NCBI RefSeq assembly: GCF_001029105.3
Contig: NZ_CP011807.3
Coordinates: 3,410,001-3,474,000 of the forward strand
Direction: 5' to 3'
Length of the DNA stretch: 64,000 bases
Origin: Pandoraea faecigallinarum
GTDB lineage: Bacteria; Pseudomonadota; Gammaproteobacteria; Burkholderiales; Burkholderiaceae
The notes beneath the pieces are model-generated. The model was given only the letters and a program-made list of their open reading frames with translations. It did no database searches and was not told the origin of the DNA. Shown here piece by piece: positions 30,166 through 63,736 of the stretch (positions within the stretch are counted from its first letter, which is position 1; each line of letters starts with the position of its first letter). The position numbers were made by a program, and so were the translations under genes.

Positions 30166-30189
30166 TGTGTCTTTCTAGGGAGCCAAAAT
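30166..30189 (-). promoter_or_regulatory. Phage RNA polymerase promoter P1, upstream of the tail fibre/lysis block
   Basis: Minus strand reads ATTTTGGCTCCCTAGAAAGA followed by CACA. It is one of five near-identical sites in the prophage and resembles SP6/T7-class promoters (compare CACTATAGAAG). The start is predicted at the G of TAG|AAAGA or beside it, about 25 bases before the tail-fibre ATG. Confidence 0.82.
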
Positions 30190-30217
30190 GGGAGAAGCCC
30201 GCCGTAGCGGGCCTCCC
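30186..30217 (-). terminator. Intrinsic terminator directly before promoter P1
   Basis: Stem GGGAG/CTCCC (30190-30194, 30213-30217) continuing into GCCCGC/GCGGGC (30197-30202, 30207-30212) with a 4-base loop. On the minus strand it is followed by ATTTTGG, whose T-run is also the upstream end of promoter P1. It lies 4 bases after the 1652-residue virion protein gene. Confidence 0.8.
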
Positions 30218-30221
30218 GTGC

Positions 30222-33200
30222 TTACTGTGTTGCCAACGAATTACTCAACGCGGTTCCGAACACTGTGTTTGACCCCGGCACCAGCCGCCACATGTTGCGT
30301 AGCTGCTTGTGATAGTCCACCGGATCGACCTTGCCCGGCATGTGGCCGAGTACGGCCCCGGATGCTACATTGCCCGCCGCCCCTGCCCCGCGTCCGATGT
30401 TTTGGAGGAAGCCGATTGCTGCGACGGGGCTACTACTGCCGAACGTCTGCCCGCCAAAGATCGTATGCCCGAGGTCAAGCGTATCCGGCAGTAGGCCCGC
30501 CATGTTGACCATGACAGCGACACCCGTTGCCAACTTCATGCCGGACAAGTTCTCCTCCAGATACTTCTGCTTCTGCGTGGAGTCCATACCGACGGTATTT
30601 GCCTGTACCTTCGCGTAGTACAGCATCGCGCCCCAAGCAGTTGCCATCGTGAAGCCTACGGCCGCATTGCTATCGCCAATGAACACGTTACGAGCGAACT
30701 GCTTTTCGGCGGCGGTCACACCGAACCGGCGGAACTGCCCAATCAGCTTGCCGAACTCCTTCTCCGTGGCCCAACGCGGCGTTTCACCAACAAGCGCCCG
30801 CTGGACAACCTGCCATGTGGCACGGTGCAGCGATCCAATGAAAGCGTCCGCTGCGTACTGGTCATCCCACTTGTCGAAGTTGATGCCGTCGCCCTTCTTG
30901 CGGCCGCCGTCGTGCTTCGTCATCTGCGTGCGGATTCGGTCGATGTCCTGCGGCAAGATGCCCATGTCAGCGAGGCGCGCATCGGTGATGTGCCCCTTAC
31001 CGTCACGAATCTTCGCCCACATGTCCTCGGCCAGAATCGGCAGCACGCCCCGGTGAACGATCTTGCCAACGAGGTTCAAACCAGACAGCGTACCGACGGC
31101 ATTTGCCGATCGATCGGCCAGACGATTCAGCGTGCTACCTTCCGCGAGAACCGTTTCAGGCTTGAGCACGGAGTTCGTGGTCTGATCGATGTGCATGCGA
31201 TGGTCAAGGCCGAGGGCACTGCCAGCGTACTCATGCAGCGTTGCCTTCAGCCCCTTCCCAGCGCCATCCGTGACCCCGGCGTACAGCGAGCGGAAGAATC
31301 CACCCACGCCAACCGTCGATGCGATGGTCGCAATGTCGGCCATTGCGTTGAAGCCCAGCTTACCCATCATCGTGACGTAAGCCCCGGTTTGGAGTAGCTT
31401 CGAGACACCGTGCTCTTGGTTGTTCAGGTTCCCCTGAAGCGACCGAATCAGGAAGTGGATGTTGTCCACGTCCTGCGGCGTTGCCCCGTCCTGACGCAGC
31501 GCGTCCAACAGCGCATCGACGTGCTGCGGGTCACGCAGGCCGCGCTTCGCCAGCGCGATGTTGCCCGACCACTTGGCAGCACTTCCGTTGACCATACGAC
31601 CAATGTCGGTATCGATGTAGTCCAGCATGCGGACGCCGCCCTCCGCGTCTAGCAAGTCGAACTCGGTACGGGTGCGATCCTTGATAACGTCGGTCAGGCG
31701 CTGCTTGAATTCCGTCGCCATTTCCCACGACACCTTCGTACCGCGCCAGTCCTCAAGCAGAAGATCAGCAGCCACAGCACCGAAATGGTTGTCGGCACCA
31801 TCGATCCGCGATTGCGGGTCTTTCATCGTCTGGTTCAAGTAGTGGTCAACCATACGCCCCGCCTTCTCCGAGGCCGTAGTTCGCAGTTCGGCCAGCGCTT
31901 CGGGCGTGTGGGGGCCGGTCGCCAGCATCTTGTCCAGCGCGGGGCCGACAACCTTCGCCTCGTACTGGCGACGCAAGATCGCCTTGAACGCGTTGAACTT
32001 CGGCACGTCATTGACGTACAGGTCGTTTAGCGCCCGGAAGTCCCACTTGTAAGGCATGTAGCCAACCCAACCGCCACCGTGGATGCCTTCGCTCTGCGCG
32101 TCCCCGACAGCCTTACCGTTCTCGGTCAGAGTACGCCAGTAGCCATCAAGCGCACCCGCGTACTCACGCACCAGCGGGTCTGCCGTGGACACGTACTCGG
32201 TGCCCGCCTGGACTGCTGCACGGTGCTTCAGACGCTCCTCGGCAATCAGCTTCCCTACGCGCTTCTGCGCCTCCTCCCCGCCACCCATTGCAGCGGCAGC
32301 CAGTTCCTTCGGGGTGAACAGCTTCGGCCAGATACGCTCATGGACTTCGAAGAAGGGACGCTTAAACGAATGCGTCATGATTTCCTTCTCGATTGCGGCC
32401 GACGAGGCGTGCTGACGGTTCATACCCGTCGCATCCTCGCCCAGCGCGGACGCCCACATACGCACGCCCTTGCTCTTTGACTGTGCCAGCAGCAGGCCCA
32501 CGCTGTCCGCAATCTGCCCGAACATTCGGAACGCAGCGGTATCACGCACCGCACTGCCGTACCAACCTGCGGCGCGCTCACGTAGTTTGGCCGTCGCCTC
32601 CGGGCGTACCTCCTGCCAGTCGTCAATTTGCTTCTTGAACTCCTGTGCCAGCGCCGAGCGTACAATGTCATCACGCACGGGGGCGCTGTTGCGCACGCCT
32701 GCGGCGGCAGTGTCATGCAGCGGCGTGTCGATGAGCGTATCCGCCAAGCCAATTGCCTTGAGCAGCGCATTGGTCTGGTTCGCCGTAATGCCCAGCAAAC
32801 TACGGACTAGGTCAACCGCCTTAGTCAGTAGGTGTTCGCCCTTCGACTTCATTGCGGCCAGATGGTCGATGAACTCCGTCTTACCGCTATACAGACCGGC
32901 CACAAACTCATCCACGTTCGACAGGTAGTAGCGGGTCTTCGAGTCGTTGCCCCTGTAGGCGGCAGCCGCTTCTGCGCGAAGCTTCTCCAATTCCCCAGCG
33001 ATCTTTCCATGTGCTGAGGCGGGATTCGCCTTACCGTATTCGAGCTTCTTGACCGTAGCCGCGTGGGCCAACTCATGCAGCAGCACGTCGTCACCGGCCT
33101 TGCCGCCGAGCGACACAGAATGAGTCTTCGGGTTGTACGCACCCGTTACCGAGTCGTCGGCACGGCGGACAACAGACACATCACCGCGCAATTGCTCGTG

Positions 33201-42763: not shown

Positions 42764-42787
42764 TGTGTCTTTCTAGGCGACCAAAAT
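42764..42787 (-). promoter_or_regulatory. Phage RNA polymerase promoter P2, upstream of the capsid gene
   Basis: Minus strand reads ATTTTGGTCGCCTAGAAAGA then CACA. It differs from P1 at three positions, all within the variable TCG part before CCTAG. It sits between a terminator and the capsid gene. Confidence 0.82.
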
Positions 42788-42813
42788 GCGAAAGGGCCGC
42801 CCGAAGGCGGCCC
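42785..42813 (-). terminator. Intrinsic terminator directly before promoter P2
   Basis: Perfect 8-bp stem GGGCCGCC (42794-42801) / GGCGGCCC (42806-42813) with a tetraloop that reads TTCG on the minus strand, followed by TTTCGCATTTT on that strand. It ends the scaffold transcript 38 bases after its stop codon and abuts promoter P2, repeating the arrangement at P1. Confidence 0.88.
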
Positions 42814-48742: not shown

Positions 48743-48744
48743 CC

Positions 48745-49437: not shown

Positions 49438-49499
49438 ATGGATTCCTTACGAGTGGAGGTTGCTACTGCCCTTCTGTCAGGATGACTTCGAGGCCGGGG

Positions 49500-50279: not shown

Positions 50280-50297
50280 TCGATGTGGGCCTTTGGA

Positions 50298-50534
50298 TCA
50301 GGAGATACTGCGTTGGATTTCGTCGGCAATAACTGCGCCGATCTTTTTCGCCACCGATTGCACGATGTACTCGCGGGGAATTTCGGATGCGCGGAAGTAC
50401 CGATCGGCAGGCGTATCGACACATACATACAAGTCCGTGCCGTTGATGGTGACGACAAGTCGCCATTCGTCCACCCTGCGCCACTCGCTGAATGACTTCG
50501 ACCACTCGCGGATCGGGATACGGAGGTCAGGCAT
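50298..50534 (-). CDS. 78-residue phage protein, unknown function
   Basis: Begins MPDLRIPIREWSKSFSEW; the longer open frame is in the endonuclease gene and is rejected. It overlaps the endonuclease VII stop by 8 bases, so the pair is coupled. It has a strand-rich middle (LVVTINGTDLYVCVDTP) and a helical end. No family is recognised. Confidence 0.75.
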   Translation of the reverse strand: MPDLRIPIREWSKSFSEWRRVDEWRLVVTINGTDLYVCVDTPADRYFRASEIPREYIVQSVAKKIGAVIADEIQRSIS

Positions 50535-52708: not shown

Positions 52709-52711
52709 TAA

Positions 52712-52786
52712 TCAGTATCCTTGTAGAAGAATGAGAATCGCGACCAGTGCTTCCGCACCGAAGATGTAGAGCTTTAGTGCTGCCAC
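52712..52786 (-). CDS. Possible 24-residue hydrophobic peptide
   Basis: GTG-started frame overlapping the end of the DNA polymerase gene and ending 4 bases before the SSB-like ATG. The peptide is almost entirely a membrane helix (ALKLYIFGAEALVAILILL). No ribosome site is seen. It fills the 65-base gap between two coupled genes and could be a chance frame. Confidence 0.3.
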   Translation of the reverse strand: MAALKLYIFGAEALVAILILLQGY

Positions 52787-55194
52787 GAGGGGGTGTGGCC
52801 GCCGATGAATCGCTTACGAAGCCAAGGACGCAGCGCGTCGCATGCCTTCGAGAACACCGGGTCGGTGATCTTTTCTTCGTCCATCATCGAAGCGCCCCAA
52901 ACGGTGTCGCTCGGCACACCGATGGGCAGTTCCCACTTGAACCACCACTCCATGAACGTGCTGGCTTCTTCCATGCAGACGTGCAAGAGGGCCGCAGCCT
53001 TCGCCGCAACGCTCTTGTGGAAGTCGCCGTACTCGGCGTCGTGAACCTGATTCACGAGGAGCGCGAGGCCGTCGAAGTTTTTGAAGTGATAGAAGGCGCG
53101 GACTGACAACCACATCGCGGCCTTGGCCCATTCGCCGCCCGATCCCTGAACCGGATAGTTCTTGATTTCCGTAGGCGAGAACGACGCGAGTTGCCCACGC
53201 TCGGCTAGGAACTTCGGAGCGGGAGACTCGTAGAAGCAGTAGCGCTTACCGTCCGGCGTCCTGTAATACGACTTGCCAAGCTGTACCGTCAGGCCGCGAA
53301 TGTCGGGGTGAGCCACTACCTTGCCGGTAGGTCGCCGCCCCTTCTTGAGCGTAGTTGTCATAGCGTCGAAGAACGCGTTGACTTCCGGGTAGCGTGCATC
53401 CTCTGCGTCGGCCAGCGCTTGCACTTCGTCCTCGGACATACCGGTGGACCGGGCAATCGTCTTGACGCCTGCACCATAGGCACGCTGGAAGCTGAAGACC
53501 TTGGCCTTCGTGCGCTTGTAATCCCAATCAGGATCGCCCTCGACCTTGCACTTGTGGAACACTTCGTCGTATTCCATGTGCTCCTTCGCAGCCAGACGCA
53601 CGCAGTGCATGTCCTTGCCTGTTCGCAAGTCTTCGATAAGCTGAAGCGCATGGGTAAGGATGGCTTGGATGTAGACTTCCAGCGACGAGAAGTCGGACTG
53701 GCAAATCACACCGTCGTCGCCCCAGCGGGAAGCGAGGATGCGCTTCACATCGGACTTCTGCCCCTTCGGCACATTCTGAAGGTTCGGGTTGCTGGACGAC
53801 AGGCGGGCCGTGACGGTGCTCGTCATGTTCAGCATGTGGTGGATGATGCTGTCCAACTGCACCATCGTGAGCATGCCGACGTGCTCCCCCTTCTTCTCGT
53901 CGTACCGGATGAAGTACGTACCCAAGTCCTTCGTCATCGCCTGGACTGCTGCGAGCGACTTCAGGAACGGGATATCCCGGCTGCCGAGTTCTTCGATGAC
54001 TTCGGACGACGTGGAGTACACACCCGGATCGCTGCCCGCCCATTTCGCATCAGGCTCCGTGAAGCCGTCGAACCGGTAGATGAACTTCTCCATCCGCGAC
54101 TTCGGCTTGGAGAGGTCGTTGACCTTGACCTTCTTCGTCTTGGGCTGGCCCTTGTTCTTGCCGCCCGCGAACGTGGCAACCACCAGTCCGTGCGCCTCCA
54201 CTTTCTCGAAGCTGGCGGTTGTGCCGTCTTCAAGTAGGTAGTGCGTCTCCTCCTTCTGTGCATAGACCTGCTGACCGGCGTCGTCCAGCACCGGGGCGCG
54301 GGCCTCGTACGTGACGTTGCCGCCAAAAATCAGGGCAGACTTGTGGAAGCGGCTATTCCAGTTGAACTCGAACGGTAGGCCATCCGGCAGGAACGCCGAG
54401 AGCGTCGTCAACTCACCGGCCAGTCGCTCGGCCAATTCCCCGGCGAGCTTGTGGCCTAGCTCCGTGTTGACGTACATGCCATTGCGCTCGGCTTCGATGG
54501 TGAAGATGAGCGCGCCCATATTCAGGAGGATGCTGCGGAGTTGACCGTTTGCCTTGGCCTTCTCGTACTGCGCCCGGAACACGAGTTCGGTGTTGCCGAT
54601 ATCACCGTGCTCCCACTGCCCCGCCTCATCGGTACGTCCGACCAGATAGCGCATCAGCAGGTCTTCGGGAATGTCGATGGTCTGAACCCCCGCCTCCCAC
54701 AACGCTTTCACTTCATCGAGCTTGACGTTGCCACCGTAGGCCGGGGCAATCTCGTCCAACGCGAGCATGTGCGAGGACTGCTCCATCCCTGCCAGTAGAT
54801 ACTCGGCAAGCTGAATGTCCCACACAATGCCGCCGCCAGCCACGAAATCCATCCACGCCGACAGGTTGGCCTGCGCATTGGAGTTGGGGTTAGCGATGGC
54901 GTACAGCAGGTCGAACTTGATGTTCTGACCGACCAGCAACTTCGTACCGGCCAGCAGCTTCGTGAACCAATCATTCGGCAGGTTCTTGCAGGCGGCTACC
55001 CGCGCCTCTTGGGTGTCGCCGTCAGGGAAGTACTCGCCGAAAACGCGCTCACCTGACGAGTTCAGATTTTGGTCGGAGAGTTTCCCCCGGCACCATCCGT
55101 GGCATACGACATAGTTCTCCGGCGAAAACGGATTAGCTTTGCGCTTGTATTCCGTCTTGGTCGAAGACTCAATGTCCCATACGGTGTAGTTCAA
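52774..55194 (-). CDS. DNA polymerase, family A (T7-like)
   Basis: 806 residues starting at TTG within TTGA, overlapping the stop codon of the upstream gene. An in-frame stop lies just upstream, and the proofreading motif VWDIESS begins at residue 5, so no other start is possible. Exo motifs: D7/E9, and VGQNIKFDLLYA. Polymerase motifs: A in CQSDFSSLEVY (about residue 500), B in TKAKVFSFQRAYGAG (about 572) and C in NQVHDAEYGDF (about 718), where the usual HDE is HDA. It replicates the phage genome; no processivity-factor gene is needed from the phage in the T7 model. Confidence 0.95.
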   Translation of the reverse strand: MNYTVWDIESSTKTEYKRKANPFSPENYVVCHGWCRGKLSDQNLNSSGERVFGEYFPDGDTQEARVAACKNLPNDWFTKLLAGTKLLVGQNIKFDLLYAIANPNSNAQANLSAWMDFVAGGGIVWDIQLAEYLLAGMEQSSHMLALDEIAPAYGGNVKLDEVKALWEAGVQTIDIPEDLLMRYLVGRTDEAGQWEHGDIGNTELVFRAQYEKAKANGQLRSILLNMGALIFTIEAERNGMYVNTELGHKLAGELAERLAGELTTLSAFLPDGLPFEFNWNSRFHKSALIFGGNVTYEARAPVLDDAGQQVYAQKEETHYLLEDGTTASFEKVEAHGLVVATFAGGKNKGQPKTKKVKVNDLSKPKSRMEKFIYRFDGFTEPDAKWAGSDPGVYSTSSEVIEELGSRDIPFLKSLAAVQAMTKDLGTYFIRYDEKKGEHVGMLTMVQLDSIIHHMLNMTSTVTARLSSSNPNLQNVPKGQKSDVKRILASRWGDDGVICQSDFSSLEVYIQAILTHALQLIEDLRTGKDMHCVRLAAKEHMEYDEVFHKCKVEGDPDWDYKRTKAKVFSFQRAYGAGVKTIARSTGMSEDEVQALADAEDARYPEVNAFFDAMTTTLKKGRRPTGKVVAHPDIRGLTVQLGKSYYRTPDGKRYCFYESPAPKFLAERGQLASFSPTEIKNYPVQGSGGEWAKAAMWLSVRAFYHFKNFDGLALLVNQVHDAEYGDFHKSVAAKAAALLHVCMEEASTFMEWWFKWELPIGVPSDTVWGASMMDEEKITDPVFSKACDALRPWLRKRFIGGHTPSWQH

Positions 55195-55445
55195 CCGGGC
55201 AGCCCGAAGAATTTCAGGATGCTGAACTTGGGACGCTGCTCGAACGATGCACAGTGCTCCCCCTTCCGCGCCGAATATGCAGTCGTGTAGTACACGTCCT
55301 CACCGCCGTTCACATGGTCAGGCTTGCGGGTTGGGTTCGCCCGACATTGCGCTGAAATCCCGTAGCCCGCATGTACATAAATCTGCGCCTTGCGGAAGTG
55401 CTTGCATTCAACGCACGGCGGCGTCGGTTTCTGGAAAGCGATCAT
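55191..55445 (-). CDS. 84-residue phage protein with a possible zinc-binding Cys set
   Basis: Contains CVECKHF, then SAQCRAN and GEHCASF, giving a C-x2-C plus two further Cys that could hold one zinc. It overlaps the next gene as ATGA and its stop codon overlaps the polymerase start. Function is unknown. Confidence 0.75.
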   Translation of the reverse strand: MIAFQKPTPPCVECKHFRKAQIYVHAGYGISAQCRANPTRKPDHVNGGEDVYYTTAYSARKGEHCASFEQRPKFSILKFFGLPG

Positions 55446-55864
55446 GCGACCTCCACGATGGTTCTCGGCTGGGTCAGCGCCAGCAGTTCGGCCTGCGCTT
55501 CCGGGAGGAGGCCAGCAAGCACCTGCTCCTGATAGCCCCGGCGCAGATTGGCTTGGTAAGCGTCTGCAACAGTGCGCTCGATGCGCTGATTCGTTTCCAG
55601 ATTCGTCTGGTATTGCTTCAGGTCAACCTTGCTCACGATCCACTGGTAGCGATGCTCGCTGTTCGGCTCGATTCGCAAGTCACTGTGCTGCTCAACCACT
55701 TCGACAACCTTGTAGTTCTCAGCGACCTGAACCACGGCACGATCCCCGGCAAGCAGCACAAGGTCCGTCACGTATATGTAGGTCTTTTCCAGCGGCGCAC
55801 CTTGGAAGCGCACGCTAACGGTGCGAATGCCTTCACGCAGAAGCGCGGCGATGTTCTTGTCCAT
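55442..55864 (-). CDS. 140-residue phage protein, unknown function
   Basis: Starts MDKNIAALLREGIRTVSVRF and has a beta-rich N-terminal half (APLEKTYIYVTDLVLLAGDR) and a helical C-terminal half (QRIERTVADAYQANLRRGYQEQVLAGLL). Coupled to the downstream gene by an ATGA overlap. I recognise no family; its place among replication genes suggests a nucleic-acid role. Confidence 0.75.
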   Translation of the reverse strand: MDKNIAALLREGIRTVSVRFQGAPLEKTYIYVTDLVLLAGDRAVVQVAENYKVVEVVEQHSDLRIEPNSEHRYQWIVSKVDLKQYQTNLETNQRIERTVADAYQANLRRGYQEQVLAGLLPEAQAELLALTQPRTIVEVA

Positions 55865-55865
55865 G

Positions 55866-56093
55866 TCAGTTTCCGAAGTGGGTATGCAGTCGTTTGTAGA
55901 TGGCTTGCATCGCGGACTCGTCCAGAGCCACGATATCGTCGTCGTCCATGTCATCCCGATTGACCGGCTTCTGTCGCAGCACGAGCAACGGCGTACCGTC
56001 GCGGCGCTCCATCAGCGTTGCCGTCGTCGGGGATGTAGTGGTCCCTGCCCCGTTCACCAAGGACGGGGCGTTGTAGATTTCAGTGGGTCGCAA
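55866..56093 (-). CDS. 75-residue phage protein, unknown function
   Basis: Starts at TTG with GGAG 8 bases upstream (inside the helicase end). An ATG at residue 28 is the alternative start. The C-terminal half is acidic (NRDDMDDDDIVALDES) then helical. No family recognised. Confidence 0.62.
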   Translation of the reverse strand: MRPTEIYNAPSLVNGAGTTTSPTTATLMERRDGTPLLVLRQKPVNRDDMDDDDIVALDESAMQAIYKRLHTHFGN

Positions 56094-56098
56094 TCGGA

Positions 56099-57370
56099 TT
56101 ACTCCGGGTCATTGAACTGCGATTTACCTGCGTCGAAGTACACCTCGCGCCGAGGGTCGCCTGCCGCGCCGTCGCGTCGCTTCTTGTTCTTCGGGAGGGA
56201 AAGGAACCGCGTGTTCTGAAGGGTGGGGTCGCTGGAGCGGCCTAGCATCAGAATGAAGTCGGCAGCACCGGCTTTACCGGTCTGGCTGTTCGCCAGCATG
56301 TTCTGCTTCGGGAAGCACTCGCCTTCGGCGGTTCCATTCAACTGCGACGTGGCGAGCACGGCACAGTCGTACTTCACTGCCCAAATTCGGGCGCGCTGGT
56401 ACATCGCCTCAAGCAACTGGTCGGTTCGCGTACCGCCGTTGGCCGCGCCTTGATCCATCGACACGTTGTCCAGCATGTCCACGACTACGACAGCGGGCTT
56501 CACGTCGCGCACAATGTCCTCAAGCTGGCTCACCGTGAAGTCGTGCACGTCGAACACGTAGAACAGGTCGCGCCCGCCCTGCGCTTGAACGTACCGCTCG
56601 TAGATCGAACCGTCTTGTGACCATCGGACGAGTTCCGAAGTCGTGGCCTTGAGCATCGCGTTATAGAAGCGCTGCTTGATCTTCCGTCCCGGTCCCTCGT
56701 TGTTCAGCACGATGATCGTTCGACCTTGGCCGGGAAATAGCTGCTCTACCTGCGGCGCGAACGCTGCGAGCAGACAGGCGATCAAGCTGGTCTTCCCGCT
56801 ATCGACACGGGCCGCGATGATCCCGAAGTCCCCGGAACGCAGTGGCTTCATCGAAGCGTCGATGCATGCGATGCCGTAGTGAAACCCGGTGTCGTTCGCC
56901 TCGGCCAACAGAATGTCTTCGATGCGATCCTTCACCTTCGGGTGCTCTACGGTGCGCTGCACGATGCTCTCGTGCCGCTCCGCAACGGCGCGCAGTGCTG
57001 CCGTCAGGTCAACTTCACCGGCCTCGTACCCGTCGATCAATGCGGCCAGCCGGTTCGATGTAGCTACCTCTGCGAGCCGGTTGCGGATACCGTCCGTTGA
57101 ACCGGGCGGTGCAGGCTCCGCAGCTTCTCGCAACGTCGCGCCGTACAGCGCAAGCTGTTCCTCGTTGAGCTTCGGGTGACGCAGCGCGAAGAACGTCTGG
57201 AACGCTGCCGTGTCGATCTTCGTAGCGGTCGGATGCTCCGCGAAGTACGCGCCGTAATCCGCTAGAACGGTCTTCGTCTTGATATCGATGCCCTTGTCGG
57301 GTATCGCTCTGTGTAGCTGGTCGTACTCCTCACGGGTGCGAAGAATACGCAGCAGTGTTACGTCAAGAAT
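56099..57370 (-). CDS. Replicative DNA helicase (RecA-fold, DnaB/T7 gp4C type) with a non-ATG start
   Basis: 423 residues if started at ATT (57368-57370). The Walker A segment is IIAARVDSGKTSLIACL and Walker B is AVVVVDMLDNVS; LNNEGPGRKIKQRF and LATSQLNGTAEG are further RecA-fold motifs. The frame stays open and protein-like well upstream of the first internal TTG (57133) up to a stop at 57376, with LRTREEYDQLHRAIP and FQTFFALRHPKLNEEQLALY as expected for the helicase N-terminal part, and contains no ATG, GTG or TTG there. GGGAG lies 8 bases before the ATT. CTG codons at residues 6 and 7 are the alternative. The primase gene overlaps it by 13 bases. Confidence 0.88.
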   Translation of the reverse strand: MLDVTLLRILRTREEYDQLHRAIPDKGIDIKTKTVLADYGAYFAEHPTATKIDTAAFQTFFALRHPKLNEEQLALYGATLREAAEPAPPGSTDGIRNRLAEVATSNRLAALIDGYEAGEVDLTAALRAVAERHESIVQRTVEHPKVKDRIEDILLAEANDTGFHYGIACIDASMKPLRSGDFGIIAARVDSGKTSLIACLLAAFAPQVEQLFPGQGRTIIVLNNEGPGRKIKQRFYNAMLKATTSELVRWSQDGSIYERYVQAQGGRDLFYVFDVHDFTVSQLEDIVRDVKPAVVVVDMLDNVSMDQGAANGGTRTDQLLEAMYQRARIWAVKYDCAVLATSQLNGTAEGECFPKQNMLANSQTGKAGAADFILMLGRSSDPTLQNTRFLSLPKNKKRRDGAAGDPRREVYFDAGKSQFNDPE

Positions 57371-58182
57371 CGGCGTATCTCCCTGTCAGAAAGTAGCTTC
57401 GGGTCAGCACGCGATAAGACGTATCGGGCATTGACACCGTAGCCGGTGAGTTGCTTGACGATGGCCCGCGCAGCGATGACGCCGGGCCGCTTGCCTGCGG
57501 GGTACTGCCAGTCAGGGTCTAGCCACACGAGCACCGGCCCTCCCCGGCTGACGATCTGAACCGCGACCGGCTCGGGCAGCTTCGTGCCGAGTAACGACCA
57601 CGCCTCCGTGTGCTTCCCGACGCGGAAGGCCGACAGAATGTCTTCAGTCAGCACGAGCACCCGGCCCGTGCCGTACTTGGCGACGAGGCGGCTACGGTCT
57701 ACGTTTGGATTCACGTACTTCGGTCGCGGGTCGTCGGGCTTCCAGCCCATCGCCCTGCCCTGCCAGTACACAACCCGCTCGCCATCAAGCACCGGCAGCA
57801 CCACGCGACCAGACGGCTCGTGGAAATACGCACCGACGCGCTCAATCTCCGGTCTGCCCAGCGCGGCCTTGTACAGCCAGACGCGTGCCTCCTCGGGCCA
57901 TGAGTCGATATCGAAGTTGGTTGGTACTGGCAGAGTGACGCTTGAGGCCAGCGCCTCATCGGCTTCGCGCTCGCTTTTGCGGCGAGCAAGCCATTCACCG
58001 AGCGTTTCCGTCGGCTTGTCCACGATTCCCGGCTCACCACAGCGGAAGCAATACGCGCTCCAGCGGTGCGCCTCGTGGCGGATGGAAAGTACGCGTCCGG
58101 GGCCGCAGGCATGCCCTACACGGGCTGACCGGCCTTCGTCTAGCTCCTGTGCCTTAGCGAGCCAGTCGGACGGCGGAAGCAA
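57358..58182 (-). CDS. DNA primase (separate gene, phiKMV-like)
   Basis: 274 residues starting at TTG directly after an in-frame stop (TGATTG); no other start precedes the zinc-binding region. N-terminal zinc motif: GHACGPGRVL...YCFRCGE. A TOPRIM domain follows with VLVLTEDILSAFRVG (catalytic Glu/Asp) and VLVWLDPDWQ (DxD-like). It makes RNA primers for lagging-strand synthesis. In T7 primase and helicase are one protein; here, as in phiKMV, they are two overlapping genes. Confidence 0.9.
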   Translation of the reverse strand: MLPPSDWLAKAQELDEGRSARVGHACGPGRVLSIRHEAHRWSAYCFRCGEPGIVDKPTETLGEWLARRKSEREADEALASSVTLPVPTNFDIDSWPEEARVWLYKAALGRPEIERVGAYFHEPSGRVVLPVLDGERVVYWQGRAMGWKPDDPRPKYVNPNVDRSRLVAKYGTGRVLVLTEDILSAFRVGKHTEAWSLLGTKLPEPVAVQIVSRGGPVLVWLDPDWQYPAGKRPGVIAARAIVKQLTGYGVNARYVLSRADPKLLSDREIRRFLT

Positions 58183-58872
58183 TCAAAGTGCTCGCGGCTG
58201 AATGGCCCACACCTTGACCAGACGCGCATGCGCCTTCTCACGGCCCGCTTTCATCGTATGGCCCGTGTCTCGAAGGAATCCGAGACGTGCCGCAGAGCGC
58301 GGCAGCGATCCCCACGCATTCGCGCTTTCCGGTTCGTCCACACGCCCGGCGGCACGGAATTCATCCAGAGTCACACGAGTGACGCCGCGCTTGTAGCTCT
58401 CCATGCAGAACAGCTTCAGCGCTGCAATGGCGCGGGCCGCCCACTCGGAACCGGCACGGCGTGCCGCTGCTGCTTGACCACGAGCCTTGCGGGCTTCGCC
58501 GCTCGTCGCGGTAGGCGTAATGCGTTCGAATCGGCAATGAAGCCAAAGCGCATTGACCCCCTCAACACGCACAAGGTCTCGGCTGACTGCTTCTACCTTG
58601 TAAACATCGCCAGCCTCCAGTTTGTTCCCGTACAACGACGCACTGGACACGCAGCGTACCGTGTCGCCCTTTTTGAACTTGGACGGCGGGGGCGGCGAGT
58701 ACGACTCATCGGCCAATTCGAAGCGACTGGCGTAGTAGTCGGTTCTGCCGGTCTCCAGAAGCTGAACGTAGATGCCGGTCTGTCCGGCGATGGTATAGAC
58801 TGCCCCACGCTTCAGGCGGACGCTCTCACTCACACAACGAACGCGATCACCGATTTTGAATTGCTTCGTCAT
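58183..58872 (-). CDS. 229-residue phage protein with two SH3/KOW-like repeats
   Basis: Two N-terminal repeats, FKIGDRVRCVSESVRLKRG and FKKGDTVRCVSSASLYGNK (residues ~5-23 and ~66-85), resemble short SH3-like barrels. The C-terminal half is basic and helical (GEARKARGQAAAARRAGS) and may bind nucleic acid. It is the gene immediately before primase and overlaps the upstream small gene's stop codon by 1 base. Function unknown. Confidence 0.75.
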   Translation of the reverse strand: MTKQFKIGDRVRCVSESVRLKRGAVYTIAGQTGIYVQLLETGRTDYYASRFELADESYSPPPPSKFKKGDTVRCVSSASLYGNKLEAGDVYKVEAVSRDLVRVEGVNALWLHCRFERITPTATSGEARKARGQAAAARRAGSEWAARAIAALKLFCMESYKRGVTRVTLDEFRAAGRVDEPESANAWGSLPRSAARLGFLRDTGHTMKAGREKAHARLVKVWAIQPRAL

Positions 58873-59144
58873 CAGAGCACCCCGCCGATCAGCTTGGCTT
58901 CAGCCTGTGCGGCCTGCTTCACGTCACGCGCCGCGACGCGGGCCTTGGCGGCAGTGATATCGGCATCGAAGGCGGCATCGGTGGCCGCGTTAGCGACGCT
59001 GTAGGCGATATCGGCTTCCGTAGTGCGTACGCGGGCTTTCGCCTCGGCAGCGGCTACCGTGAGGCGCAGCGACTTGATATGCAGGGAAACGGCGAACTGG
59101 TGGACGGCACGCGTAGCGCGGGCCAGATGCTTCGAGAATTTCAT
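58872..59144 (-). CDS. 90-residue helical phage protein
   Basis: Starts MKFSKHLARATRAV with AAAGGA 7 bases upstream; an earlier start is rejected for lack of one. Ala-rich and strongly helical (AAAEAKARVRTTEADIAYSV), likely coiled coil. No family recognised. The 126 bases between this gene and the next upstream gene (59145-59270) hold no gene. Confidence 0.75.
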   Translation of the reverse strand: MKFSKHLARATRAVHQFAVSLHIKSLRLTVAAAEAKARVRTTEADIAYSVANAATDAAFDADITAAKARVAARDVKQAAQAEAKLIGGVL

Positions 59145-59270
59145 GTGGATTCCTTTCAGAGTGCGCACACCTTGGATGCGCGCTTTTGGGTCGGTGAGTT
59201 TCGCTAGTTACTGCTCACTACGAGAAGCCGCGCTGCTTCTCCTCTTATGCAACCTATTCGGCTGCGCCGG

Positions 59271-59657
59271 TTATTCCGCGTACTCCAGCGGCAGCGTAGC
59301 GAGAGCTTTGGGGGCCGCATCGCCGTAGCGTCGCGCTTCTGCCTCTGTGTCATAGGCACGCAGGCTACCGACCTCAACCCACTCCCCGACCCGGTACAGG
59401 TTCACCCACACCGTGCGCTTGGTCGGGGCCATGAACAGGTCGCGCCGGTTTTCCTCGCCGCTAAGAAAAGCCCCGTTGTCGCAGAAGTGCATCGTGTGGC
59501 GCTCACCGGTAACATGCGCAAGCACGCGGAACGTTTGCGGCTCCTCCGGCACGTAAGCGACGAACCGCGCAGCGCGGCCGTCACGGGTAATCAGGGCTGC
59601 ACCGGCCTTGGCGGCTTCGAGGTCGAACGGCTTGTACTTCGGTTGGGCTTGCGTCAT
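59271..59657 (-). CDS. 128-residue phage early protein, unknown function
   Basis: ATG chosen at MTQAQPKYKPFDLEAAKAG with AAGGAG 8 bases upstream. The segment LITRDGRAARFVAYVPEEPQ and the closing YDTEAEARRYGD are of a kind repeatedly seen in small early phage proteins. It overlaps its upstream neighbour by ATGA. No function known. Confidence 0.78.
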   Translation of the reverse strand: MTQAQPKYKPFDLEAAKAGAALITRDGRAARFVAYVPEEPQTFRVLAHVTGERHTMHFCDNGAFLSGEENRRDLFMAPTKRTVWVNLYRVGEWVEVGSLRAYDTEAEARRYGDAAPKALATLPLEYAE

Positions 59658-59884
59658 TGCGTCTTCTCCTTCGGTTGCTTCGGGGTATGGGTGACGGTGC
59701 GGGCGTACTCGAATACGGTTTCGATCACGACCCAACCAGTGGTGTCTTTGCGGGACGGGTACAAGAATGGATACCCACCGCGATTCAGGCAGGTAGTCGC
59801 CGGGGCTTTGTTGTTGTAGAAGCGGGAGACGCGCTTACCTTCGGCGTCTTCCACGTGAAAGCGACTGAGAACCATCGCGCCCAC
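59654..59884 (-). CDS. 76-residue phage early protein, unknown function
   Basis: Starts at GTG 2 bases after the preceding stop codon (an ATG 9 bases later is the alternative). Mixed strand protein with FYNNKAPATTCLNRGGY and a basic C-terminal tail (TPKQPKEKTQ). Coupled to the next gene through ATGA. Confidence 0.68.
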   Translation of the reverse strand: MGAMVLSRFHVEDAEGKRVSRFYNNKAPATTCLNRGGYPFLYPSRKDTTGWVVIETVFEYARTVTHTPKQPKEKTQ

Positions 59885-59886
59885 GG

Positions 59887-60060
59887 TTACGCGCCCCCTT
59901 CCAGACCGATGCGGCTGGCGAGCATGCGGCCCAGCAGGTGCTGCACGTAGGCCGCGTGGGACGGGAAGCCGATGGCGCGGGCTGCGCGGTTCTTCTTGCG
60001 CGTGTACTGTCGGCCGGGGCGGGTGCCGCCTACCGAATTGAGGGTACGGACAATATGCAT
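59887..60060 (-). CDS. 57-residue basic phage early protein
   Basis: Starts MHIVRTLNSVGGTRPGRQYT with a strong AGGAG 6 bases upstream of the ATG. Rich in Arg/Lys (RKKNRAARA) and ends LASRIGLEGGA. It fills the gap between neighbouring genes, with 2 bases to the next start. A nucleic-acid-binding role is plausible but unproven. Confidence 0.72.
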   Translation of the reverse strand: MHIVRTLNSVGGTRPGRQYTRKKNRAARAIGFPSHAAYVQHLLGRMLASRIGLEGGA

Positions 60061-60113
60061 AGAACTCCTAATTAAATTGATGGGACGTGTTCCGAAATTC
60101 TGTACTGCGTTGG

Positions 60114-60233
60114 CTACTTCACCGCCCTGTTACGTCGAATCAAGACCGATGTGCGAATCGGGGAGACAAGGCCGGAAATACACGCTGCAACTACCTTGCC
60201 GTTGTGTGTGACGATGCGAACTCGTGGCGTCAT
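60114..60233 (-). CDS. 39-residue basic phage early peptide
   Basis: Starts within an ATGA overlap with the preceding 53-residue gene (MTPRVRIVTHNGKVVAA) and ends RRNRAVK. Coupling and a coherent basic composition support translation; the small size leaves doubt. Confidence 0.5.
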   Translation of the reverse strand: MTPRVRIVTHNGKVVAACISGLVSPIRTSVLIRRNRAVK

Positions 60234-60391
60234 TTTCCGGGCGTGAGGTTGACGGACTTGGCGAATGCCGACGCCATTGCAGACTGCTCGATAAAGCGCG
60301 GGGAGCGGCGAGTAACCGACGTGATGACTGCGGAACCGACGTTGCGGGCGGGCTTACCTTGGTACGGACGCTGCTTCGTGCTGTGTTGCAT
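60230..60391 (-). CDS. 53-residue basic phage early protein
   Basis: ATG with AGGAG 6 bases upstream. Starts MQHSTKQRPYQGKPARNVGS and ends VNLTPGK. Basic, Ser/Arg-rich. No family recognised. It lies 26 bases after the KilAC-domain gene in the leftward early operon. Confidence 0.7.
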   Translation of the reverse strand: MQHSTKQRPYQGKPARNVGSAVITSVTRRSPRFIEQSAMASAFAKSVNLTPGK

Positions 60392-60417
60392 TGCTTCTCC
60401 TGTGGATTGAATTTAGT

Positions 60418-60813
60418 TCAAGCGGCTGCGAGGCATTCGAACGCCTGCGCCAATTTGGTAATGCCTTTCTGCGAAATACGGACTTGCGTTCTGCCTCGCC
60501 CCTCCAGCCGCACAGGAATCTCCCTCTGCGTCAGCAACCCCGAAGTGATGCGCTCCTGATTCGCACGCCACTCGTCACCGTGCGGGTATATCCAGCCCTG
60601 AGACTCTAGGTACGCCGTCAATTCAAGCGGGCGCACAACCAACACGTTTGCTGCATCGCGGATGCACAACGTCCCCGTCGTGTCCGCAAGCCGCGTGAAC
60701 GCCCGCAGCATGTGCGTTTGCTGTGGGCCTATCGCTTCGCCTTGCTCGGCACGTTCACGGAACCTCATAAAGCCACCGCCTACGCGACCGGAGTCGCTAT
60801 GTACAAGCTGCAT
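60418..60813 (-). CDS. KilAC-domain (phage antirepressor C-terminal) protein
   Basis: 131 residues, ATG with AAGGAG 6 bases upstream. Residues ~55-131 match the KilAC/ANT fold found at the C-terminus of phage antirepressors: LVVRPLELTAYLESQGWIYP, then NQERITSGLLTQREIPV and VRISQKGITKLAQAF. The N-terminal part (MLRAFTRLADTTGTL) has no Bro-N or other recognisable DNA-binding domain. In a prophage with a LexA-type repressor, an antirepressor or regulator role is plausible but not shown. Confidence 0.72.
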   Translation of the reverse strand: MQLVHSDSGRVGGGFMRFRERAEQGEAIGPQQTHMLRAFTRLADTTGTLCIRDAANVLVVRPLELTAYLESQGWIYPHGDEWRANQERITSGLLTQREIPVRLEGRGRTQVRISQKGITKLAQAFECLAAA

Positions 60814-60835
60814 CTGCTCTCCTTCGTTGATTGAC

Positions 60836-60964
60836 TTACCTACTCACTCGCAGGGCAAGTCGATTCTCGGCTACCTTGTAAGCCGCTACTAGGTGATCTT
60901 TCTCTAGAAGTTGTGTTAGAGAAACTCCCTCACGCGAGACATGCGGCGTCACGCGAATCCGCAT
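60836..60964 (-). CDS. Possible 42-residue phage early protein
   Basis: Frame MRIRVTPHVSREGVSLTQLL, ending ENRLALRVSR 23 bases before the KilAC gene start. No ribosome site is seen and it overlaps the previous gene by 35 bases, so translation is uncertain. Composition is protein-like. Confidence 0.35.
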   Translation of the reverse strand: MRIRVTPHVSREGVSLTQLLEKDHLVAAYKVAENRLALRVSR

Positions 60965-61130
60965 CAGCAATTGCGCGGAACAGGGCGTACGAAGCGTCAT
61001 GACTAAAATGAAAGGTTGCGCATCGCACGGAATGGGTGGTGGTCTTGCGGTAGACCTCGAACCGCCCCACCCCCTTGCAGTGAACCCAATGGGTCGCGTT
61101 CTCGTGCACGATGTCTGCTTCTTCACGCAT
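60930..61130 (-). CDS. 66-residue phage early protein
   Basis: Starts MREEADIVHENATHWVHCKG and contains GRFEVYRKTTTHSVRC and a helical end SYALFRAIADADSR. It overlaps the preceding gene's end by 8 bases. The pattern is protein-like; no family recognised. Confidence 0.6.
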   Translation of the reverse strand: MREEADIVHENATHWVHCKGVGRFEVYRKTTTHSVRCATFHFSHDASYALFRAIADADSRDAACLA

Positions 61131-61296
61131 GACCACACCCCGCCTTTGCCACCGCGAGACGGCCCGCGAGGAAGTCATCAACGTCCTGCCGCACCTCGGC
61201 AAGAGTGCCCCAACGGGTACGCCCGCCTACCCGCACGCTGTAGCTGATTGCGCACCGCCCCTTTGCGATTCGGAAGCCTTTGTATGTGCTGAACAT
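61123..61296 (-). CDS. 57-residue phage early protein
   Basis: ATG with AGGGG 6 bases upstream. Starts MFSTYKGFRIAKGRCAISYS, a strand-rich beginning, then a helix EVRQDVDDFLAGRLAVAKAG. It overlaps the following gene by 8 bases and sits 9 bases after the next upstream gene, so the operon is tightly packed here. Confidence 0.68.
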   Translation of the reverse strand: MFSTYKGFRIAKGRCAISYSVRVGGRTRWGTLAEVRQDVDDFLAGRLAVAKAGCGHA

Positions 61297-61305
61297 TGCG
61301 GCCCC

Positions 61306-61503
61306 TTAGTAGTCAAGCAGGCCAGCCAACGCGGCACGGTTTGCCGCGACGTACTCGACAATGCGGATACGTTCTCGCGGATGCAAAACGACGGGAGCAA
61401 GGTTGAAAAACTCCCCGATCAGATCGACGCGGTGCCCTTCGGCTTTCTCGCGGCTGTCGAAGGTCTTTCCTCGCGTCACGTACACGGTCTTTTCGTGGAT
61501 CAT
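61306..61503 (-). CDS. 65-residue phage early protein
   Basis: ATG with AGGGGGG upstream. Starts MIHEKTVYVTRGKTFDSREK and ends VEYVAANRAALAGLLDY, an alpha/beta pattern common in small early proteins. The longer open frame is rejected for lack of a ribosome site. Function unknown. Confidence 0.72.
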   Translation of the reverse strand: MIHEKTVYVTRGKTFDSREKAEGHRVDLIGEFFNLAPVVLHPRERIRIVEYVAANRAALAGLLDY

Positions 61504-61513
61504 GATGCCCCCC

Positions 61514-61753
61514 TTACATGCCAACCATCGCAGCACGGATGCTGCTGACGCTGTACGGCGCACCGTCCGGTGTGGTGTGGACGCCGTTGTCGTTCAGATG
61601 GGCCAGTAACGAGGCGGCTGCTACCTGCTTGTTCTCCGAGTCACGCACCAACTCTTGCGCGACCCTGTACAGCCCCTCGTCATTGTTGATCCACAGGGAC
61701 ACGTTCCAGTGATTCCAATTCTTGTGGCCGTTGTAACCTTTGCTTCCGCTCAT
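61514..61753 (-). CDS. 79-residue conserved early phage protein (YNGHKNWxxWNVSLWI type)
   Basis: ATG with AGGAG 9 bases upstream. The motif YNGHKNWNHWNVSLWINNDE belongs to a widely spread small phage protein group (compare YNGWxNYETWxVxLWI). The C-terminal half (HLNDNGVHTTPDGAPYSVSS) is less conserved. It is the first gene of the leftward early operon. Function unknown; early position suggests host takeover or regulation. Confidence 0.75.
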   Translation of the reverse strand: MSGSKGYNGHKNWNHWNVSLWINNDEGLYRVAQELVRDSENKQVAAASLLAHLNDNGVHTTPDGAPYSVSSIRAAMVGM

Positions 61754-61821
61754 GGTCGAATCTCCTATACGTAGGAATACTAAATTTATAAATGACAGAT
61801 ATCCCGGAATCCCGGGTGAAT

Positions 61822-61873
61822 CGAGATAGAGGCACTGGATGCACCAATGCGCCGTTCCAATGTTTCTATCTCG
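61822..61873. repeat. Inverted repeat in the early leader
   Basis: CGAGATAGA at 61822-61830 and TCTATCTCG at 61865-61873 are exact complements (9-bp arms, 34-base spacer). Possible regulator binding site or RNA stem. Function unknown. Confidence 0.5.
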
Positions 61874-62007
61874 TGGCACTGAGCAATACTCGAAGGAAAC
61901 CGCCCAATGCCGCGCCACGTGCCGGTGCTACCGGCTGTCTCGTGTCCCGTGGTGGACATACGGTTACTAGCCCGTGGCCCGCAGGCCGGTGAGCGTTCAC
62001 GCACCGA

Positions 62008-62020
62008 ATTGTTAAAGAAC
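62008..62020 (-). promoter_or_regulatory. rrn-like boxA in the early operon leader
   Basis: Minus strand reads GTTCTTTAACAAT, close to the rRNA antiterminator boxA (TGCTCTTTAACA in E. coli; TTCTTTAA-containing forms in betaproteobacterial rRNA leaders). It lies about 90 bases after the candidate start site of the leftward early transcript. Confidence 0.55.
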
Positions 62021-62111
62021 CGTCCCGAGAACCCCGGTCGCACTGCCGGGCGGGTGCTGCTGTGTTGCTGGTGCCGAACTAGCTTTTGCTTGTTGCTGCA
62101 CCGTGAGACGA

Positions 62112-62140
62112 ACTTTAAACAAGCAAATGCTAACCATCAA
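62112..62140 (-). promoter_or_regulatory. Candidate sigma70 early promoter (PL)
   Basis: Minus strand: TTGATG (62140-62135), 17-base spacer, TAAAGT (62117-62112). The CAAATACT and CAAATGCT repeats overlap the -35 and the spacer, so a repressor bound there would block it. It would start the leftward early genes leading to the phage RNA polymerase. Confidence 0.5.
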
Positions 62141-62193
62141 ATACTGATTTTTAATCACCAAATGATGGCGATAGGGAAAAATTATCAAATGCT
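62124..62193. repeat. Four CAAATGCT-like repeats, candidate repressor operators
   Basis: CAAATGCT (62124-62131), CAAATACT (62138-62145), CAAATGAT (62159-62166) and CAAATGCT (62186-62193), all in the same orientation, in a strongly AT-rich block between the early promoter and the repressor gene. The last one is part of the dyad ATGCT-GGT-AGCAT (62189-62201). Confidence 0.6.
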
Positions 62194-62228
62194 GGTAGCA
62201 TCCACTCACCGCGCCCAGCATATGCATG

Positions 62229-62234
62229 TATACT
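62229..62234 (+). promoter_or_regulatory. Possible -10 element of the repressor gene
   Basis: TATACT at 62229-62234, 36 bases before the repressor ATG. No good -35 is found at 16-18 bases, so the promoter would be weak or activated, as is common for repressor maintenance promoters. Confidence 0.35.
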
Positions 62235-62269
62235 TTGCGTCACGACCAACTCACAGATAGACGACGACC

Positions 62270-62971
62270 ATGAGCGAAACTCAAACGGCGGCTGCGTTCA
62301 TAGAGCGCCTGTTCACGGCCATCGGGCATGACAACCTGTATAGCTGGGGACGGAAGGTGGGCATAACCGAAGGGACGATGCAGACCATCAAGCGAGGAAG
62401 CATCCCGAAGGCGGACGGCCTACTCGCAATCAGCAAAGCAACGGGGAAAACGGTTGACTGGCTATTAGGTGCCGACAGCGAGCAAGGAAATGCTAACTAC
62501 AGCACGCGCCATTCAGCAGATACCACGCCAGCAAATACTGACGAGTTCGTTTACATCCCGCGTTACGATGCTTGCGCATCAGCGGGTACGGGCTACTGGC
62601 TGGGAGACGAGGCGCAAGCCCGGTTCACGATGGCATTCCGCCGTCATTGGGTGGAGAACTACTTGCGAGCAAGGCCGGAGGATTTGAGCGTCCTTCGCGT
62701 TAAGGGCGACTCTATGGAGGATGTTCTTTTCGACGGGGACAACATCCTGATTAACCGAGCCGATACAGCCGCCACCGATGGGATATTTTTGATTACGGTG
62801 GACGGTGAACTACTCGTGAAGCGTCTGCAACGCCTTCCGGGCGGTAGGCTGCAAGTTATATCCGACAACCCCGATTACCCGCCATTCGAAGTCCCCGTTA
62901 AGGAAGACGACGACCAGCGGGCCGGGTTTAACGTCGTTGGCCGCGTTGTCTGGTTCGGTCGGCAGTTGTGA
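62270..62971 (+). CDS. Phage repressor, HTH plus S24 (LexA/CI-type) self-cleaving domain
   Basis: 233 residues. N-terminal helix-turn-helix at about residues 23-55 (LYSWGRKVGITEGTMQTIKR). The C-terminal S24 peptidase domain has the catalytic Ser148 in VKGDSMEDVL and Lys184 in LLVKRLQ; the probable autocleavage bond is Ala105-Gly106 in CASAGTGY. Such repressors hold lysogeny and are cut when RecA is activated by DNA damage. It is divergent from the early operon with operator-like repeats between them. Its end is 8 bases from a convergent membrane-protein gene. Confidence 0.93.
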   Translation: MSETQTAAAFIERLFTAIGHDNLYSWGRKVGITEGTMQTIKRGSIPKADGLLAISKATGKTVDWLLGADSEQGNANYSTRHSADTTPANTDEFVYIPRYDACASAGTGYWLGDEAQARFTMAFRRHWVENYLRARPEDLSVLRVKGDSMEDVLFDGDNILINRADTAATDGIFLITVDGELLVKRLQRLPGGRLQVISDNPDYPPFEVPVKEDDDQRAGFNVVGRVVWFGRQL

Positions 62972-62979
62972 GCTAAAGA

Positions 62980-63345
62980 TCAGTCCCGCCCCTCCGACTC
63001 CAGTCTAGACACCGCTCGCTTCACACGCCCATTAGCGATACGAACACCGCCCCTCGCTACATGAGCGATACGGATGCGGTTTTGGTAAACAGCCCGGACC
63101 ACCCGGTAACACGCAGACACCGCTACGTAGAGCAAGAACATCACCGTAAAGTGAAAGAAAGGAACTGCGATAATGTCTATCGGCTTGTTAAAGTAGGTGG
63201 GCGGAATGACCACACGGGCCAACCCCCAAACCCCGGACATGAGGCCCACACCAAAGGCACGCCACGCGGTGGTAGCCCACCGATTACCGGTGTCACCGGA
63301 AGGCACCTCAGAATGCGCTTCCTGTTCATTCTGCCCCATCCCCAT
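62980..63345 (-). CDS. Small membrane protein, possible lysogenic-conversion (moron) gene
   Basis: 121 residues from MGMGQNEQEAHSEV with GGGGAGG 8 bases upstream; the longer open frame is rejected. Two predicted membrane segments (about residues 30-47 GVGLMSGVWGLARVVI, and 57-80 IIAVPFFHFTVMFLLYVAVS) and a basic C-terminal end (RVKRAVSRLESEGRD), so the tail is cytoplasmic. No family is recognised. It lies opposite to and converges with the repressor. Superinfection exclusion is one possible role (inference). Confidence 0.72.
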   Translation of the reverse strand: MGMGQNEQEAHSEVPSGDTGNRWATTAWRAFGVGLMSGVWGLARVVIPPTYFNKPIDIIAVPFFHFTVMFLLYVAVSACYRVVRAVYQNRIRIAHVARGGVRIANGRVKRAVSRLESEGRD

Positions 63346-63411
63346 ACAGTGACCTCCCCTCGCTGATCTTATATACCGGCTCCTGTACCGGCCCGCCCTC
63401 GGCGGCCTGTC

Positions 63412-63417
63412 ATTATA
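63412..63417 (-). promoter_or_regulatory. Possible sigma70 -10 element of the membrane-protein gene
   Basis: Perfect TATAAT on the minus strand about 67 bases upstream of the membrane-protein ATG. No good -35 at 16-18 bases. If active it would let the gene be expressed in the lysogen by host polymerase. Confidence 0.4.
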
Positions 63418-63712
63418 TCCGTACGGAGTGCTTACTACGCAGTGGCTCCCCGTGCCCTGCATCTGTCAGGCTCGTCTCATACCAGCACCTGTGATTCTTG
63501 GTAGGTCGCTCTCCCCCGCCCGGTTCCCTGTACCCGCTGCCCTGTGTTCGGTCATGTGTTGCTGACCTGTGACGTATTCCTGTGTGGTGTCCTGTTCACC
63601 TCATCCTATCCCGGCGTCCTGTCCCCGCTCCCTGTCTATGTTTCCCTGACCGGCCTAGCTGCGCTGGCCTTCGCATCCGCTCGTCAGGCCGACAGATACC
63701 GGTCATGGTTTC

Positions 63713-63736
63713 TGTGTCTTTCTAGGGAACCGAAAT
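63713..63736 (-). promoter_or_regulatory. Phage RNA polymerase promoter P4, rightmost, directed leftward
   Basis: Minus strand reads ATTTCGGTTCCCTAGAAAGA then CACA, the closest to the consensus of all five. It points at the membrane-protein gene and, beyond it, antisense through the repressor gene into the early operon. Confidence 0.82.

Follow-up and report, generated by a model that had tools for sequence, protein, structure and literature searches.

Predicted promoters for a prophage-encoded RNA polymerase in Pandoraea faecigallinarum, with a recurring antisense copy behind the polymerase gene

We describe five related 24-base sites in a 64,000-nucleotide stretch of the Pandoraea faecigallinarum genome (the window), all within a prophage that encodes its own single-subunit RNA polymerase (RNAP). 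Judged by specificity, position and covariation, the five sites are well supported as promoters for this RNAP. The sequence of the four on the - strand is new; to judge by their places, they are phage promoters of an ordinary kind. On the + strand, the fifth faces back into the RNAP gene, and the initial annotation of this DNA had overlooked it as a recurring antisense promoter behind that gene. We consider it probable that the sites represent five RNAP promoters, the antisense one of which lets the RNAP limit the expression of its own gene and of the middle genes. A brake on the RNAP appears to be the most likely role of this antisense promoter.

Five sites and their presumed polymerase

Coordinates refer to the window, and genome-wide searches covered the 5.73-Mb genome. 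All five sites are present where they had been placed, the + strand site spanning 46240-46263 in the register used here (46239 in the initial annotation). Four of them, as had been said, point in the direction of the genes, all on the - strand. These are the left-end promoter at 63713-63736 (ATTTCGGTTCCCTAGAAAGACACA, -18 to +6, inferred +1 at 63718), in the same place as promoters of phages JG068 and Paku; the sense promoter behind the RNAP gene at 46208-46231 (ATTTCGGCACCCTAGAAAGACACA, inferred +1 at 46213), which is directed towards small open reading frames (ORFs) and the portal gene and is placed like a mapped promoter of phage KP34; the promoter before the major capsid gene at 42764-42787 (ATTTTGGTCGCCTAGAAAGACACA, inferred +1 at 42769); and the promoter before the tail-fibre gene at 30166-30189 (ATTTTGGCTCCCTAGAAAGACACA, inferred +1 at 30171). 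The antisense site (GATTCGGTTCCCTAGAAAGATCAC) stands back to back with the 46208 site and is directed into the RNAP gene, with an inferred +1 at 46258, 10 base pairs (bp) from the RNAP stop codon. The sites were also said to lie before late blocks, which describes most of them; the site at 63713 marks the left end of the phage instead. The shared core CCCTAGAAAGA is exact at four of the five, the capsid site reading GCCTAGAAAGA, and the CACA described after the core follows it directly at four, the + strand site having an extra T (GATCACA).

The sites form a phage-specific motif of about 20-24 bp that recurs before gene blocks, as expected of T7-type promoters. That such a sequence would not recur by chance holds for the long pattern TTYGGNNSCCTAGAAAGA but not for the 11-base core at up to two mismatches, which was found 11 times in the window against 6.75 expected, with 13 of 100 shuffles as high; it is therefore the longer form that carries weight. 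Across the whole genome, TTYGGNNSCCTAGAAAGA is matched exactly at five places; a single mismatch yields no match, two mismatches yield five and three yield 30, and the reversed control gave 57 matches at up to three mismatches. The exact matches are the five sites themselves. At zero or one mismatch the pattern is thus confined to the prophage, in support of a set of promoters that belongs to the prophage's own RNAP. A genome-wide search for the core had been proposed earlier as a check; the 11-base form, matched exactly, is present at four places, always in the prophage, and the exact 15-base core is found in 11 stretches of the IMG/VR database, two of them in a record with an identical RNAP. 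The prophage itself, 41.4 kb long, is bounded by an exact 49-bp repeat of a tRNA-Val end (23907-23955, + strand, with the second copy at 65228-65276, beyond the window), and all five sites thus lie inside it.

The presumed reader of the five sites is an 824-residue single-subunit RNAP (46268-48742, - strand), which matches PHROG 414 over its full length (E=4e-293) and T7 RNAP (1aro, E=5e-116). Its reading frame is open, and Asp523, Lys598, Tyr606 and Asp762 align (numbers by eye) to Asp537, Lys631, Tyr639 and Asp812, the catalytic residues of T7 RNAP. Three of these four are also named in PMC12272871. Where T7 RNAP has its promoter-specificity residues Arg746, Asn748, Arg756 and Gln758, the prophage enzyme has, numbered by eye, Ser700, Arg702, Arg710 and Lys712, which fits the use of another promoter. 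The closest RNAP from an isolate is that of Burkholderia phage Paku (59% identity, compared with 30% for T7 RNAP), and the nearest isolates by RNAP (Paku, Caulobacter phages and JG068), together with an RNAP tree, place it in the phiKMV-type cluster. The gene order is collinear with Paku and JG068, the RNAP gene lying between the replication and structural genes. By sequence, the prophage is a temperate-type phiKMV-like (Okabevirinae-like) autographivirus, known here from its integrated form.

The five sites had originally been described as SP6-like. This likeness did not hold, since they share 8-10 of 20 bases with the quoted SP6 promoter ATTTAGGTGACACTATAGAA in ungapped alignment and the RNAP belongs to the phiKMV/Okabevirinae-like lineage, in which promoters vary from phage to phage. 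A resemblance exists in ATTT.GGT at the upstream end, whose distance to the core is off by one base (by eye), and SP6 RNAP is of another lineage. The Syn5 promoter (ATTGGGCACCCGTAA) was compared in the same way: its GGCACCC recalls the 46208 site, with 10 of 15 bases identical at the best offset, and three other sites share 8-9 of 15; Syn5, however, is of a marine cyanophage lineage, and its promoter is reported to lie inside the RNAP gene.

Counterparts in related phages

Phage promoters are annotated in JG068 at the left end, behind the RNAP gene, before the capsid gene and before the tail-fibre gene, having been predicted with PHIRE (PMC3765740). Behind the RNAP gene, JG068 also has a weak, unannotated antisense copy with 6 of 21 mismatches (8 at the best other minus-strand place). 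It differs from the prophage in its promoter sequence (TCAGTAGACTATCTAG), in two extra sites before the DNA polymerase gene and in being virulent, with no integrase match. In Paku, the same four sense places hold ATTTCATGACCCTAAGCAGACACA or near copies of it, which are unannotated in the Paku record, and a clear antisense copy with 2 of 21 mismatches lies behind the RNAP gene; an integrase is present. The Paku core, ATTTCATGACCCTAAGCAGACACA, is different, and the Paku genome report makes no mention of promoters.

Mapped promoters are available for two further phages. In KP34, a phiKMV-type Drulisvirus, the RNAP gene likewise lies between the replication and structural genes and is directly followed by a strong promoter; according to PMC6834552, this promoter lies six bases behind the RNAP stop codon, was mapped by rapid amplification of 5' cDNA ends (5' RACE) and works in vitro, and a copy lies near the left end at 475-490, positions that we confirmed on the sequence. 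The KP34 promoter sequence, T[AG]ATGTTACAGGAGTA, is unrelated to those considered here, and its third copy is located inside an internal virion protein gene, with none before the capsid gene. LUZ100, a T7-like Pseudomonas phage, is also a temperate-type autographivirus whose own promoters were mapped (by ONT-cappable-seq) and for which antisense RNA is reported. That antisense RNA, however, maps to the structural region, downstream of the capsid gene, and the phage has a promoter of its own upstream of the RNAP gene, with positive feedback proposed, rather than an antisense promoter behind it.

We then compared the promoters across a wider sample of 21 prepared genomes, 18 of which (the window and 17 relatives, among them Paku, JG068 and those labelled L0xx here) were used for consensus sequences and for the antisense search; L009 and L064, whose capsid anchor was unreadable, and L021, which matches L020, were set aside. 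Each consensus was built from the seed upstream of the capsid gene and its copies elsewhere, with the region behind the RNAP gene excluded. Sense-side copies were counted at up to 5 of 24 mismatches, and their places were judged by distance, as the contigs are unannotated. Besides the capsid copy, 12 of the 18 genomes have copies on both the tail-fibre and left-end sides and four on one side; two fragments have none. Among the consensi of the 16 genomes with an antisense copy, the mean difference between two is 11 of 21 positions, with extremes of 1 and 18, although all have only A or T at -16 and -15 and a G at the inferred +1, with mostly GACACA from that G onwards; it is at this G that promoter starts were placed for all sites. 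The sense promoter behind the RNAP gene often reads GACGCA where others read GACACA, its +4 agreeing with the consensus in four of the 16.

It is highly improbable that the sites are instead binding sites for another regulator, or packaging or recombination signals. The motif changes between phages while its places are kept, the place behind the RNAP gene equals that of the mapped KP34 promoter (PMC6834552), and in length and polarity the sites are like T7-type promoters, the G at the inferred +1 being present in all 16 consensi.

An antisense copy of the genome's own promoter was found behind the RNAP gene in 16 of the 18 genomes (up to 6 of 21 mismatches, against a consensus made without that region), and in 15 of these 16 no other minus-strand position in the available sequence is as good, L015 having one. 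In all 16, the antisense region fits the consensus of its own phage better than any of the 15 foreign ones, the mean number of mismatches over 21 bases being 3.6 for the own consensus and 9.5 for the others. From -6 to +1, the antisense copy agrees with the own consensus in 15-16 of the 16 genomes, although -6 to -1 take four letters among the consensi. The geometry is also kept: between antisense start and RNAP stop codon there are 3-18 bp, and sense and antisense starts are 43-47 bp apart in 14 of the 16.

Because the anchors for these analyses were chosen by hand, after earlier results had been seen, an automatic test without chosen anchors provides the less biased measure. It covered 62 distinct loci after removal of four duplicates, with 25 loci that had too little sequence behind the RNAP gene left out. 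Allowing 3 of 18 mismatches, it detected a sense/capsid pair at 30 of the 62, a few of which appear spurious. An antisense copy at an expectation below 0.05 is present at 20 of the 30, 15 of them without a background match, where about 1.5 would be expected by chance; one of the 20, L089, should be discounted as a self-palindromic overlap. For the window, the expectation is no better than 0.024, with seven background matches, and L057 failed the automatic pairing and is counted in the 18-genome analyses only. Four of the 32 loci without a clear sense/capsid pair reach an expectation below 0.05.

On an RNAP tree built with FastTree, the clade of 24 that holds the window contains 16 members with the divergent pair of sense and antisense promoters, four without and four unscored, and the pair is also present outside this clade in P14, L077, L080 and L082. 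Parsimony on this tree gives five changes among scored rows. The pair label clusters on the tree, with 9 changes against a shuffled mean of 18 and none of 500 shuffles as low, although near-copies help this result and several of the 'no' labels were set by eye. The link between the antisense promoter and a temperate life is not strict, as the records of 11 of the 16 pair genomes contain an integrase match (the window being represented in this count by the IMG/VR record with the identical RNAP). Three of those with no such match are near-complete (JG068, L066 and L086) and two further ones are fragments; conversely, L024 has an integrase and lacks the pair.

Other arrangements were seen behind related RNAP genes. 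In L009 (Achromobacter deleyi), the region at about 12470-12515 holds GCGTACCGAAATGATTCAGTACCC, a partly palindromic overlap with no clear antisense copy, and in L064 there is a strong inverted repeat behind the RNAP gene but no recurring promoter was found. In L138, L139 and L140 (Xanthomonas/Stenotrophomonas phages), two apparent tandem sense copies, identified by eye and without a confirming capsid copy, are separated by a hairpin and a short T-rich stretch, in place of the divergent pair.

Possible roles of the antisense promoter

In the arrangement that we favour, host RNAP would make the phage RNAP from the early operon after loss of the CI-like repressor. The phage RNAP would then fire the left-end promoter, serving genes from the early region on, together with the three late promoters behind the RNAP gene, before the capsid gene and before the tail-fibre gene, and would simultaneously fire the antisense promoter of the back-to-back pair, 10 bp past the RNAP stop codon. 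Transcription from the latter would run head-on across the RNAP and replication genes and, through antisense RNA or collision, may damp RNAP synthesis and middle-gene expression as RNAP accumulates, with late transcription away from the pair continuing. For a promoter placed at the RNAP gene end that is the best minus-strand match in 15 of the 18 genomes, a brake seems the simplest role to suggest.

Several observations weigh against this reading. The antisense copy was not found in L024 and L067 in the 18-genome search, is absent at 10 of the 30 loci with a clear sense/capsid pair in the automatic test and, in KP34, does not occur behind the RNAP gene at up to 5 of 16 mismatches among the ten best matches listed; it is thus not essential for this phage type. 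The antisense copies also depart more from the consensus (58 deviations against 33 for the sense copies over 16 genomes), agree with it at -10 to -8 in only 8-11 of 16 genomes (13-15 for the sense copies) and, in the window, have a T inserted at +3. Furthermore, the genomes are related, two of the consensi differing at a single base, and the 16 are therefore not 16 independent cases. The record of P14, which has the pair, annotates a lysozyme-type RNAP inhibitor, so that the proposed brake would not be its only one. Finally, predicted promoters of JG068 and P14 were among those of a cell-free screen in which 8 of 26 polymerase-promoter pairs worked and all 16 pairs with low similarity to the T7 DNA-binding domain failed (PMC11475235); six of the active pairs are known by name, and neither JG068 nor P14 is among these six.

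The main competing explanation, which we regard as unlikely, is that the pair acts as a transcript-primed bidirectional origin of replication, its RNAs priming leading strands both ways. The primary origin of T7 lies behind the RNAP gene and uses phage promoters, and the position of the pair recalls it; the divergent geometry with its near-constant spacing, and the DNA polymerase, primase and helicase genes encoded by the prophage, would suit an origin as well. Nonetheless, in 12 of 13 records neither the cumulative nor the detrended GC skew reaches an extremum within 1 kb of the RNAP gene end, L066 being the lone exception with a detrended maximum 0.7 kb away. The spacer between the promoters measures 0-20 bp and is more than half A+T in only two of 16 genomes. 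KP34 has a single sense promoter at this place, some relatives look tandem, and PMC3765740 locates the origin of phiKMV and JG068 within the DNA polymerase gene, on the basis of skew in the case of JG068.

The inverted pair might also be read as a hairpin formed at the 3' end of the RNAP transcript, such as an RNase III site, a stability element or a terminator, rather than as including a second promoter. In the window and in L014 the arms do pair, and they fold far better than shuffles (z of -4.2 and -4.8). Four of the 16 pairs were folded, however, and in Paku the arms pair with a z of only -0.9 (33 of 200 shuffles as good), while in L066 they are unpaired in the best structure. In 14 of the 16, the antisense arm resembles the remaining promoters of its genome more than it does its partner, with one tie and L038 to the contrary; the deviations of the arms are nearly additive (79 between arms, compared with 58 and 33 to the consensus) and not compensating; outside the promoter footprint, at +7 to +16, the arms share 54 of 160 bases; and no T-run follows the pair (at most 3 T in 8). 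Since the arms follow the promoter consensus, with additive deviations and no T-run, selection seems to act on each arm as a promoter, and we consider a hairpin quite unlikely.

Equally, the antisense copy could be a functionless relic or by-product of a duplication or inversion of the sense promoter, in line with its greater departure from the consensus and its absence from some relatives. Although consensi differ by 11 of 21 bases on average, every antisense copy agrees with that of its own phage, and a relic would not track such changes in specificity. Together with the clustering of the pair label on the RNAP tree, this makes a relic very unlikely.

Returning to the brake, a broader form of this reading can be put forward more tentatively, at somewhat short of even chances. 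Here, the antisense brake would act as a negative feedback that needs DNA alone and would have been kept through repeated specificity changes across a broad clade of phiKMV-type phages, with an additional lock against CI in this prophage, and the pair might double as a bidirectional transcript-primed origin. The lock is suggested by the CI-like repressor gene (S24 peptidase; 62270-62971, + strand; PF00717, E=2e-20), which is transcribed towards the left-end promoter, so that phage RNAP would read the repressor in antisense; transcription from that promoter across the gene would favour the lytic state once RNAP is present. A PF00717 match was found in one of 19 records, the one with the identical RNAP, and in none of the other 18, and the layout of a promoter against CI is therefore not a feature of the clade.

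Promoters of phage RNAPs unlike that of T7 have been hard to predict, and PMC11475235 calls promoter prediction the critical limiting factor for the use of new phage polymerases. As it is the places rather than the sequences that are conserved, comparing the capsid, tail-fibre, left-end and behind-RNAP places would yield a candidate promoter for each phage. No description of an antisense promoter behind a phage RNAP gene turned up in the literature listings, a search in which many subscription papers were out of reach. A recurring antisense promoter would offer such phages a simple, testable way to restrain their own polymerase.

Other features of the prophage

The left edge of the prophage carries a tyrosine integrase ORF (23873-25045, + strand; PF00589, E=3.5e-30), whose listed start falls inside the tRNA end; the gene probably starts further on. 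The genes that follow the late promoters include the tail-fibre gene (28502-30145, - strand; PHROG 25042), the major capsid gene (41703-42719, - strand; PHROG 267) and the portal (head-tail adaptor) gene (43631-45190, - strand; PHROG 449). Lysozyme, spanin, terminase, internal virion, tail and scaffold proteins are also encoded, together with DNA metabolism functions up to the primase, and a KilAC-domain antirepressor-like gene lies in the early region (60418-60813, - strand). A G+C-rich hairpin followed by TTT, read by eye, lies just upstream of the capsid promoter (42794-42813, - strand), where Paku has an annotated terminator at the matching place, and a second G+C-rich hairpin, also read by eye, lies just upstream of the tail-fibre promoter (30197-30212, - strand); these two sites may thus be arranged as terminator-promoter cassettes.

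A sigma-70 scan of 46000-63990 found no promoter against 5.3 expected by shuffling, and we regard it as uninformative. Searching a collection of genome contigs for the RNAP gave three loci, and a search of 399 genomes of the same order for further such prophages returned nothing but the present genome and one distant match at 33% identity. By eye, repeated CAAATGCT / CAAATACTG elements resemble repressor operators; they occur at 62120-62200 and 62487-62540, in the interval separating the repressor from the leftward early genes and within the beginning of the repressor gene itself. About 3 kb past the right attachment site, and beyond the window, lies a transposase-like ORF of 512 residues (68285-69823), named by eye.

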